Shown piece by piece: positions 11,549 through 55,017 of a DNA stretch of 64,000 nt. The stretch comes from Microbispora sp. ZYX-F-249 (GTDB lineage Bacteria > Actinomycetota > Actinomycetes > Streptosporangiales > Streptosporangiaceae). The notes beneath the pieces were generated by a model that was not told where the DNA came from, did no database searches, and saw only the letters and a program-made list of their open reading frames with translations. Each line of letters opens with the position of its first letter. The first letter of the stretch is position 1. The position numbers and the translations under genes were made by a program. The stretch spans positions 62,001 through 126,000 of the forward strand of contig NZ_JBDJAW010000024.1 of NCBI RefSeq assembly GCF_039649665.1, read 5' to 3'.

Positions 11549-11790
11549 ACCGGTCCTTTCTTTTTCGATCGATTGACCCGTCGGTGACGTTCGGCGAGGT
11601 CTCCACCCGCTCCCAAGTGGCAGCTGATGCACCTTCCCCGGTGTCAGACGCCACGGCCGGCGACGCGGATGGGGACCTGGCCGGACGGGTCGGTTCCCAG
11701 GGAACCGGCATGGGTGGGGGTCCGTTGGGTAGTCACCGGCGGCACAGCCGCGAATCCGCGAGTACTGCGGCGTAATGGGGGTTGGAAGCG
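11549..11790 (+). other. mraZ-rsmH intergenic leader (candidate structured 5' region)
   Basis: These 242 bases carry no gene, in a cluster whose genes otherwise nearly touch. A very tight perfect dyad lies at 11691-11707 (CGGTTCCC, one base, GGGAACCG). A T-rich stretch follows the mraZ stop, with TTGACC at 11573-11578 but no good -10. A structured actinobacterial mraW RNA motif upstream of mraW/rsmH genes is described. I could not confirm that motif by eye, but the position fits. Confidence 0.35.
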
Positions 11791-53881: not shown

Positions 53882-53910
53882 TTCGAGTCGTGGCCCGTCG
53901 CTGCTAAGGT
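53882..53910 (+). promoter_or_regulatory. Promoter of the leader-peptide/DAHPS-CM unit
   Basis: TTCGAG (53882-53887) and TAAGGT (53905-53910) are spaced 17 bp. The predicted start of transcription is about 53917, directly before the leader peptide ATG at 53918. AAGG at 53906-53909 would serve as a ribosome site if a longer transcript exists. The -35 is weak. Confidence 0.45.
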
Positions 53911-53917
53911 CCTAGTT

Positions 53918-53971
53918 ATGGGTACGTACAGCTCGTTTACGAGGCCGGCTTCGGCAAGGCCGGTCGCGTGA
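53918..53971 (+). CDS. Candidate regulatory leader peptide (17 residues)
   Basis: The open frame encodes MGTYSSFTRPASARPVA and ends at TGA 53969-53971. Its ATG lies about seven bases after a -10-like hexamer. The coding bases contain the stem CTCGT-TT-ACGAG and GCCGGCTT followed by AAGGCCGG. The frame is followed by a U-tracted terminator 108 bases before the next gene. It holds one Tyr and one Phe, which would suit an aromatic-pathway gene, but there is no codon run. That it is translated is inference from position and structure. Confidence 0.55.
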   Translation: MGTYSSFTRPASARPVA

Positions 53972-54004
53972 CGGTGAGCTAGCGACCATCCGGAGCCGGC
54001 TTGA

Positions 54005-54033
54005 GGCAGGGACGCCAGCGTCTCTGCCTTTTT
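54005..54033 (+). terminator. Intrinsic terminator (attenuator) before the DAHPS-CM gene
   Basis: GGCAGGGACGC and GCGTCTCTGCC form an 11-bp stem with one G-U-type position, followed by TTTTT at 54029-54033. This is the only hairpin with a U-tract I found in the window. GCCGGCTT occurs at 53944 and again at 53995, just overlapping its 5' flank. AAGGCCGG (53956) can pair with either copy, a classic switch. Confidence 0.75.
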
Positions 54034-54078
54034 CGTTTCGCACGTCCGGTTCTCGCAGCGGCCACGGAGGAGCCCCAC

Positions 54079-55017
54079 ATGTCGAAGGCAGCCCAACTCG
54101 ACCGCGACGCCGTACGGATCGGCGATCTCGTGATCGGCGACGGGCTACCCGTGGTGGTCGTCGGCGGTCAGGACGCCCGCTGGCTGCGCCTGCGCGGCGA
54201 CGGCGGCCCGCCCGCCGACGGGGTGGTCGCCGAGGCCAGGGCGAGTTGGGCGGGCCCGCTGCTGGTGGAGCCCGCCTCGGCCGCCGACCTGCCCGCCGTG
54301 GCCCGGCACGCCGACGGAGTGGTGATCGGCGCCGCCTCGGCGTGCGATCCCGTCCTCGTCCGCGCCGCGGCCCGGCTCGGGCTGCCCGTCGTCCTGCAGC
54401 GGGGCGTCGTGGGCGGGCGGACGGCGACACTGGAGGAGTGGCTGACCGCGGTGGACGACTGCGCCGCCGAGGGCAACGAGGCGATCGTGCTCTGCGAGAG
54501 CGGCGGGCGCGCGGAGCCGGAGGACGCCGCGCCCGACCTGGGGCTCATGCGTGCGGCGCGGGAGCGGACCGGCCGCCCCGTGCTCGCCGGGCTGGGCGGG
54601 GACGGCGCGCTGGCGGGCGCGGCGGTGGCGGCGGGGGCGGACGGCCTGCTGGTCGGCCCGGGCGCGTCCGCGCGGGTTCTCGCGACGGCCCGCGAGGCGG
54701 CGACCGTCGTGGCGGCGGTCGTGCGGCCGGAGGCGCCCGAGACCCTCGACGCGGCCCGGGGCGCGATCGACCGCGTGGACGCGGCCCTCGCCACGCTCCT
54801 CGAACGCCGCGCCGGACTGGCCGGGCGGATCCAGCGACTCAAGCCCGTCGGCGGTTTCCGGGGCCGGGACATGGAGCGCGAGCGCCGCCTCGTCGAGGCC
54901 ATGGCCCGCCGCGCCCCCAGCCTCGGCGCCGGGCTGCTCGCCCCGATCATGAACGCCGTGATCGAGGCCGGACTGCGCCTGTCGGAGGAGACGCGGAACG
55001 GCGAGGAACGGAGATAA
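54079..55017 (+). CDS. Degenerate DAHP synthase domain fused to chorismate mutase
   Basis: 312 residues; ATG 54079, GGAGGAG six bases upstream. Residues about 1-218 resemble class I DAHP synthase (LPVVLQRG, TLEEWLTAVDDCAAEGNEAI, VLCESGG). The KRG lysine is Gln107, and the metal-binding His of the DPSHG loop is missing (GLGGDGALAG at about 170). The metal Cys139 remains. Residues 224-305 are an AroQ-class chorismate mutase with plausible Arg/Lys active-site residues (LLERRAGLAGRIQRLK, DMERERR). The chorismate mutase half probably works and the DAHPS half probably does not. It follows the leader/attenuator; dnaE is downstream. Confidence 0.8.
   Translation: MSKAAQLDRDAVRIGDLVIGDGLPVVVVGGQDARWLRLRGDGGPPADGVVAEARASWAGPLLVEPASAADLPAVARHADGVVIGAASACDPVLVRAAARLGLPVVLQRGVVGGRTATLEEWLTAVDDCAAEGNEAIVLCESGGRAEPEDAAPDLGLMRAARERTGRPVLAGLGGDGALAGAAVAAGADGLLVGPGASARVLATAREAATVVAAVVRPEAPETLDAARGAIDRVDAALATLLERRAGLAGRIQRLKPVGGFRGRDMERERRLVEAMARRAPSLGAGLLAPIMNAVIEAGLRLSEETRNGEERR

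Follow-up and report, generated by a model that had tools for sequence, protein, structure and literature searches.

What does the short stretch ahead of a chorismate mutase gene in Microbispora sp. ZYX-F-249 respond to, and how does it act on the gene behind it? The first-pass annotation of the window (by which we mean the whole 64,000-nt stretch of DNA analysed) had read a leader peptide and an intrinsic terminator here, and had named either ribosome-mediated or small-molecule-mediated attenuation as the likely function. Nothing was found in favour of a small-molecule signal. The best-supported reading is ribosome-mediated attenuation of an aromatic-pathway gene: a conserved start, frame and stop position of the leader ORF, its aromatic codons, the pairing of two segments (A and C), the terminator and a clamp make an attenuator sensing charged aromatic tRNAs the best explanation of the window element, with a probability of about 0.8.

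Organization of the leader in the window

The region consists of the following elements, listed in 5' to 3' order.

Upstream of the leader: divergent kinase-like gene (named by eye from its translation)
53882-53887, + strand: possible weak -35 element TTCGAG (by eye)
53905-53910, + strand: -10 box TAAGGT, 7 nt from the leader ATG (sequence reading and TANNNT conservation)
53918-53971, + strand: leader peptide ORF of 17 codons, ATG to TGA, MGTYSSFTRPASARPVA (frame and stop position conserved)
53927-53938, + strand: sensor codons Tyr4 (TAC), Ser, Ser, Phe7 (TTT) (codon comparison across leaders)
53944-53954, + strand: segment A, GCCGGCTTCGG, pairs with C (covariation, z -4.6, cognate/swapped test)
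53956-53965, + strand: segment B, AAGGCCGGTC, local partner of A (fold of the window; weak as a conserved pairing)
53962-53987, + strand: region IN, holds the stop codon (clamp with the sensor-codon stretch, z -2.0; helix counts)
53990-54000, + strand: segment C, CCGGAGCCGGC, partner of A, or of A-prime after readthrough (covariation and z tests)
54003-54033, + strand: intrinsic terminator T, arms 54003-54014 and 54019-54030 (scan, covariation, T fraction)
54029-54033, + strand: U tract T5 (sequence reading)
54046-54053, + strand: A-prime, CCGGTTCT, complements part of C and lies between terminator and gene
54066-54072, + strand: Shine-Dalgarno sequence GGAGGAG of the gene (by eye)
54079-55017, + strand: gene for a 312-aa chorismate mutase whose N-terminal domain is DAHPS-like but degenerate (Pfam, paralogue comparison)
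From 55097, downstream of the chorismate mutase gene: dnaE-like gene (named by eye from its translation)

The letters and coordinates given by the first-pass annotation for the frame, its single Tyr and Phe codons, the repeats and the T5 tract proved correct: GCCGGCTT is present at 53944 and at 53995, and AAGGCCGG at 53956. Leucine is absent from the peptide, and the TTT codon starts 8 nt ahead of the start of segment A. Judged from the TAAGGT box, transcription would start at the leader ATG or right beside it, giving a leaderless transcript, as had been suspected; a sigma-70 consensus scan found no promoter here, the TAAGGT box included. Below A:C, region IN closes as GGTCGC/GCGACC. Between A and C (53969-53982), stop codons occur in two frames, also in Microbispora relatives, which means that frame changes after the sensor still lead to a halt before C.

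The terminator hairpin (54003-54030; 12 pairs, 7 of them G-C) was recovered by a terminator scan. Note that the surrounding 4 kb contain two terminator-like sites vs 0.7 (sd 1.0) in shuffled sequences, so that a single site alone is not beyond chance there. It is conservation, in the form of T-tract enrichment and arm covariation, that makes this terminator more than a chance occurrence: all 10 modelled pairs of its helix have changes on both sides in a broad model-fitted alignment, and T makes up 0.79 of the 9 nt behind the hairpin in the window's family (41 leaders) vs 0.14 in surrounding DNA, with 0.52-0.61 in other families. Folding of 53918-54040 gives -60.4 kcal/mol (z -3.24), a value that 2 of 200 shuffles equalled.

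The downstream gene

The gene behind the leader had been taken for a DAHPS-chorismate mutase fusion, a name in which the DAHPS half needs a correction. Pfam recognizes CM_2 in the protein (1.2e-9), and its match to DAHP_synth_1 (2.4e-7) is partial, covering positions 92-171 of 270; with the NCBIfam models for DAHPS and the DAHPS/CM fusion the scores are far under the cut-off (e.g. 61.8 vs 279 bits). The stretches GPCAVE, KPRTSP, DPSH and DVHPHPE, which hold metal and substrate ligands, are all present in the genuine paralogue L242 of the same genome and all absent from the DAHPS-like part of the window protein. A bifunctional enzyme is therefore unlikely, and the DAHPS-like part could be a pseudoenzyme domain with a regulatory role towards the chorismate mutase. 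As nearest named relative we found Microbispora sp. H13382, at 93% protein identity. Elsewhere in the window, Rfam places an mraW RNA (RF01746, 52.4 bits, + strand, 11581-11698).

Conservation and distribution of the element

A protein search of 60 genomes yielded 25 top-listed loci (L001-L025) with the fusion or parts of it. The leader is present in 24 of these, and the remaining one (L010) is cut by a contig end. In the alignment of these leaders made without structure (A1; alignments A2 to A4 were fitted to a model), 7 of 22 RNAalifold pairs have a change on both sides. With a structure composed of A:C, an inner helix and the terminator, 95.8% of the cells in A1 pair, a value that drops to 33-45% in slid controls, and 10 double-sided pair changes are counted vs 3.6 in shuffles (0 of 500 as high). 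Furthermore, the 13 distinct A/C pairs in A1 bind better as cognates than when swapped (mean -21.8 vs -18.0 kcal/mol; the cognate beats the swapped mean in 12 of 13). The check proposed by the first-pass annotation, an alignment of the regions upstream of orthologous genes, came out with the sensor part of the peptide conserved and with covarying stems (A:C and the terminator).

Of 394 genomes in the class, a covariance model (R1) matched 60 at E <= 0.01. A second one (R2), trained on 56 leaders from several families, none of them Corynebacterium-like, matched 115 of 298 genomes of one actinobacterial order at E <= 0.001 and 5 of 246 genomes drawn from the phylum, all five from the window's class; none of the genomes of genus f20 g42 in that draw matched R2. 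Note that both models match their own training sequences by construction. Altogether, the relatives detected by covariance models span at least seven families within a single actinobacterial class. Rfam has no family that reaches its gathering score on the leader, three chance-level matches (E 0.95-3.8) lying far lower.

Of 54 named loci that encode a relative of the window protein, 46 possess the element at E <= 1e-6. Five of the eight others are cut by a contig end (L096, L125, L127, L128, L131), L133 encodes a different protein from another phylum, and L095 and L122 carry, by eye, interrupted and decayed copies, respectively; in L095 (Streptosporangium amethystogenes, around 2180-2460), the part resembling the small ORF and the part with C and the terminator appear by eye to be split by extra sequence. 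Wherever the gene behind an examined element locus could be classified (by motif, eye or Pfam), it encodes chorismate mutase or class I DAHP synthase. The chorismate mutases are fused as in the window or stand alone (e.g., L047, L049), and Pfam analysis of ten downstream proteins gave five with CM_2 (two with a DAHPS part) and five with DAHP_synth_1 alone. In thirteen genomes of f21 (L074-L077, L223-L238) the element occurs twice, once ahead of a DAHP synthase gene and once as a copy of chorismate mutase type; the terminator varies among these second copies and seems to be lost in that of L077.

The leader ORF and its sensor codons

Eighty-nine terminator-bearing leaders made up the main set (89 of 103 alignment rows; the 14 dropped rows were second matches, mostly on the opposite strand, to loci already present). 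A TANNNT box lies 6-8 nt upstream of an in-frame start codon in 89 of 89 leaders, compared with 105 of 7887 (1.3%) ATG or GTG codons in the same loci, and an out-of-frame start with this spacing was found in one leader of the 89. Locating the sensor in this set required a TTT codon, which all 89 had. Reading on from the sensor Phe in the frame of the ORF, all 89 leaders have their first stop codon between A and C, compared with 26 and 38 in the other two frames. By this sequence evidence, the leader ORF is predicted to be translated. The peptides have 16-26 residues with the sensor Phe at codon 7-12, and the reading frame after the sensor varies between species, which indicates that the sensor part and the RNA are kept rather than the whole peptide.

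The sensor was defined as the five codons ending with the last Phe. For the codon count, 12 of the 15 Corynebacterium-like loci discussed below were added (L207 duplicates L191; L219 and L221 are without F-Y-F codons), and the gene class was set by hand for 15 chorismate mutase leaders (9 in f1, 3 in f3, 3 in f21) and one DAHPS leader (L200), with L019, L074 and L200 checked by Pfam. An aromatic codon besides the last Phe is present in 84 of 84 DAHPS leaders and in 42 of 48 chorismate mutase leaders. Tyr occurs in 83 and 37 of them, respectively, and Trp in 74 of 84 DAHPS leaders vs 0 of 48 chorismate mutase leaders (28 of 34 vs 0 of 33 when distinct sensor windows are counted), a contrast confounded by shared ancestry, since 41 of the 48 chorismate mutase leaders come from one family. 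For the last Phe, 130 of 132 leaders use TTT, compared with 6 TTT to 375 TTC in the downstream genes. Tyr is encoded by TAT in 82 of 90 cases in DAHPS leaders and in 17 of 38 in chorismate mutase leaders (6 TAT to 246 TAC in the downstream genes); the window has TAC. This split of the sensors fits the pathway, in which DAHP synthase leads to all three aromatic amino acids and chorismate mutase to Phe and Tyr. A strict rule by which Trp marks a DAHP synthase leader is weakened by the 13 two-copy genomes, where the DAHPS sensor is also without Trp (9 of the 13 second-copy leaders lack a motif-detected gene, mostly because the flank is short, and were called chorismate mutase type by likeness to the other four). 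Seven of the 12 Corynebacterium-like leaders are without Trp as well. That the sensor codons lean to the branch point served by the gene behind the leader is suggested tentatively.

Pairings across the leaders

All 36 pairs among nine segments were compared with shuffled sequences in the 89 leaders. Only four had a mean z under -1: A:C (-4.6), the terminator (-4.3), the sensor stretch with IN (-2.0) and C with the region downstream of the terminator (-2.0). The positions of A, C and T come from a structure-fitted alignment, which favours A:C and T but not the other two, and the shuffles ignore shared ancestry, so all z values are guides rather than probabilities. Shuffles that keep dinucleotides gave the same picture (A:C -3.4, C:downstream -2.0, sensor:terminator arm 0.5). 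It had been proposed that AAGGCCGG pairs with either copy of GCCGGCTT to give alternative structures. The conserved pairing is a different one, A (53944-53954) with C (53990-54000): mean z is -0.8 for A:B and -0.3 for B:C, and the pair count on a MAFFT alignment revealed no covariation for A:B. In the window itself, the complementarity of C and A-prime is weak as read by eye.

The overlap of antiterminator and terminator arms expected of an attenuator is absent. In the 89 leaders, the 5' arm of T has no partner but its own 3' arm (z with S 0.58, A 0.45, B -0.13, IN 0.62, C 0.33), by which pairings of this arm with A, B, IN or C were ruled out. A candidate antiterminator between the sensor codons and the terminator arm appears in single free folds, yet it does no better than shuffles over the 89 leaders. 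A classical antiterminator that shares a terminator arm is hence not supported, and the element is filed as a variant rather than a classical attenuator.

Distances within the leader are narrowly kept. C ends 1-8 nt (median 3) before the terminator, the UUU codon starts 8 nt before A at the median and at both quartiles, and the leader stop codon follows A by 20 nt and precedes C by 16 nt (medians). Assuming that a ribosome covers 13 nt on the upstream side and 15 nt on the downstream side of the first P-site base, we calculated the predicted occupancy of A:C: 0.76 in the free RNA, 0.96 and 0.95 with a stall three and two codons before UUU, respectively, and 0.38 with a stall at UUU, where the start of A is masked. 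With the ribosome at the stop codon it is 0.82 in a fold model that cannot treat the ribosome as a steric block; judging from its size, a ribosome sitting there between A and C should forbid A:C.

Leaders without a terminator

The terminator is missing in 31 leaders of two groups, 23 in f48 and 8 in f6 (31 of 33 candidates were used; L186 has no TGGTTT, and for L197 no gene start was found). Here C pairs directly with A-prime in a hairpin, and the Shine-Dalgarno sequence lies inside a hairpin that in most leaders closes just before the start codon. One of the sequence readings behind this description took in 30 of the 31. Mean z is -3.2 for A:C, -3.1 for C:A-prime, -2.4 for A-prime:B-prime and -2.4 for B-prime:S, the share of leaders with p < 0.05 being 0.90, 0.97, 0.74 and 0.68, respectively (n=31); the use of motifs to locate C and A-prime favours C:A-prime. 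The sensor:IN clamp has a mean z of -1.6 (25 of 31 leaders). In such a chain, A:C would leave A-prime to B-prime and thereby keep the Shine-Dalgarno sequence free, and C:A-prime would free B-prime to close it; from this chain of helices we take A:C to be the ON state. Among terminator-bearing leaders, GGTGCC/GGCGCC between terminator and gene in L061-L069 (f6 g28) may, by eye, pair either with an upstream GGGC(A/G/C)CC or with a GGCACC next to the Shine-Dalgarno sequence, a choice that could act as a second switch.

Corynebacterium-like leaders

The aroR-aroF attenuator of Corynebacterium glutamicum was reportedly described by Neshat et al. 2014. A DAHPS search of 61 genomes of one Corynebacterium-like genus gave 15 with a match, and 14 of these 15 loci have the same layout as the window (L221 was left out, as no leader was seen). 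Thirteen leaders have R-F-Y-F, and L219 has Y-Y; the TANNNT-spaced start is present in 13 of 14, and C is close to the terminator. A:C has a z of -4.7 with compensatory changes, the terminator -3.6 and sensor:IN -2.1. The first two values profit from the way the segments were located, C as the sequence that best complements A and the terminator through a motif; L215 received one stretch as both terminator arms. In these leaders, neither a complement of C after the terminator (z 0.26) nor a partner for the terminator 5' arm was found, T3 leaning weakly to B (-0.99) and A (-0.85). With R2, nine of the 15 loci are matched at E <= 0.0065 (best 39.7 bits), and L215, L216, L218 and L221 are missed, as are L212 and L214, the two closest to C. 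glutamicum, so that the model fails as proof of membership for the C. glutamicum-like leaders.

In the parts of two papers available to us, the C. glutamicum aroR leader peptide contains Phe-Tyr-Phe, lies upstream of aroF and mediates a ribosome-dependent response that is enhanced under Phe limitation (PMC4046766, PMC11802643), and a further excerpt reports that C. glutamicum aro genes and leader peptides rise under total starvation (PMC6892785). Cloning primers in PMC7356990 bear the flank of the aroR leader, which reads GTGTGTTAAGGT; by eye, the flank is as in L212. Given the layout shared by the Corynebacterium-like leaders, the attenuator of C. glutamicum aroR is very likely related to the window element, even though R2 misses the leaders nearest to it.

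Proposed mechanism and alternatives

We propose that the leaderless ORF begins at the first base of the transcript and that its aromatic codons, just ahead of A, act as the sensor. With charged aromatic tRNAs, the ribosome would run to the stop codon and sit between A and C, A:C would be blocked, and RNA polymerase would stop at T. With uncharged aromatic tRNAs, the ribosome would halt on the aromatic codons and keep the clamp open, leaving A free; A:C could then close directly beside T, and transcription would continue into the chorismate mutase gene. The A:C helix abutting the terminator may hinder closure of T in the polymerase exit channel. In readthrough RNA, C:A-prime would provide a second layer, which in lineages without the terminator becomes Shine-Dalgarno control. 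The direction of the switch, the steric action of A:C and any activity of the element in the window organism are inferred. The conserved in-frame starts, stops, codons and pairings, together with the C. glutamicum aroR precedent, favour ribosome-mediated attenuation; classical antitermination is not supported, as T is without a competing partner. Several observations sit awkwardly with the attenuation reading: a stall at UUU lowers predicted A:C to 0.38, which is difficult for Phe sensing at that codon, the fold model leaves A:C at 0.82 with the ribosome at the stop, the window peptide offers only one Tyr (the common TAC) and one Phe, DAHPS sensors without Trp occur in the 13 two-copy genomes, R2 misses L212 and L214, and aroF in C. 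glutamicum is unaffected by Tyr availability according to the part of a review available to us (PMC4046766, PMC11802643).

The same parts could be wired otherwise. T might be constitutive and the ribosome control translation only, with A:C, C:A-prime and the hairpins before the gene setting access to the Shine-Dalgarno sequence in the readthrough message. The T 5' arm without an alternative partner would then need no explanation, C has a conserved complement downstream of T (z -2.0), the lineages without T keep the chain with the Shine-Dalgarno sequence in a hairpin (B-prime:S z -2.4), and the accessible part of one paper terms aroR a translational regulatory leader peptide. We nevertheless regard this as rather doubtful, for no hairpin over the Shine-Dalgarno sequence of the window was noticed by eye, and the Corynebacterium-like leaders are without the complement after T (C:post z 0.26), yet transcription of the aroF operon is reported to change in C. 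glutamicum in the available part of a review. Less probable still is a switch of reversed sense, similar to erm, in which A:C beside T would favour termination, and polymerase would pass once a ribosome stalled at UUU occludes the 5' end of A and thereby prevents A:C. It would make sense of the near-invariant UUU 8 nt before A, of the halving of predicted A:C by masking there and of the nearness of A:C to T, where stacking could aid termination; stalls at the Tyr and Trp codons would raise A:C, however, and in leaders without T the chain opens the Shine-Dalgarno sequence only with A:C formed, if B-prime:S is the closed state.

Two further explanations do away with the ribosome as sensor. A riboswitch for a small aromatic-pathway compound, with an incidental ORF, would account for a strong and conserved fold, but it leaves unexplained why start, frame and stop position are conserved beyond chance and why the codons follow the pathway; no Rfam family was found at gathering score either, and we consider it very improbable. 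The terminator could also end an independent small RNA or small-protein unit, leaving the downstream gene uncontrolled, as might be imagined for a leaderless frame with its own terminator. Every classifiable element locus precedes a chorismate mutase or class I DAHP synthase gene, though, and the peptide changes frame between species after the sensor, so that the whole product is not conserved; this is the least credible explanation of all.

Beyond ribosome-mediated attenuation in the window, the leaders may represent a widespread actinobacterial attenuator without a competing antiterminator, in which the stalled ribosome lets A:C form, A:C abuts the 5' foot of T within a few nucleotides and so prevents its closing in RNA polymerase, one chassis serves two outputs (termination in most of the lineages examined, a hairpin around the Shine-Dalgarno sequence in others) and the sensors track the branch point. 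We put this joint reading forward as a possibility that may well turn out otherwise. The element itself would mean RNA-level control of both the DAHP synthase entry and the chorismate mutase branch to Phe and Tyr in several actinobacterial families, and would raise the question of how a helix without bases in common with a terminator controls that terminator.

Comparison with known systems

Erm-type translational attenuators possess a chain of mutually exclusive helices that reaches the Shine-Dalgarno sequence, like the class without terminator; their signal is a drug-stalled ribosome, whereas in the window family it would be uncharged tRNA. The E. coli pheL-pheA leader contains a run of Phe codons and a competing antiterminator, unlike the window family. 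What the two share is that, in the accessible part of the source, a Phe-sensing leader peptide controls a chorismate mutase gene (PMC11802643). The actinobacterial trp, leuS and ilv attenuators resemble the window element in that a leader peptide with regulatory codons, often leaderless, is followed by an intrinsic terminator, as far as the available parts of the papers describe them (PMC1262725, PMC8079986), whereas the window family shows no overlap of antiterminator and terminator arms. The LEU element before leuA in Actinobacteria combines a leader peptide with competing helices reaching the Shine-Dalgarno sequence, like the class without terminator; its description in the portion seen includes a run of leucine codons and a pseudoknot (PMC1262725), whereas the window peptide has no leucine and the gene is not leuA. 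In the same portion, this 2005 survey reports no conserved RNA structure before actinobacterial Phe or Tyr operons, the type of control proposed here (PMC1262725), and the eight leader peptides of the S. lividans reannotation include, in the part available, none for Phe or Tyr (PMC8079986). Our literature search, which had most subscription journals outside its range, found no description of the element outside Corynebacterium.

This leaves aroR. It shares with the window a leader peptide with aromatic codons, and the Corynebacterium-like leaders share A:C, the terminator and the clamp. Support for a complement of C downstream of the terminator comes from the window's family and not from the Corynebacterium-like leaders. 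Furthermore, aroR has F-Y-F before a class I DAHP synthase gene, whereas the window has Y-x-x-F before chorismate mutase; DAHP synthase, though not the target in the window, is the target in other families of the element. The claim for aroR and the window is therefore one of a common RNA family rather than of the same target, and it would link the lone C. glutamicum case to leaders in many genomes.
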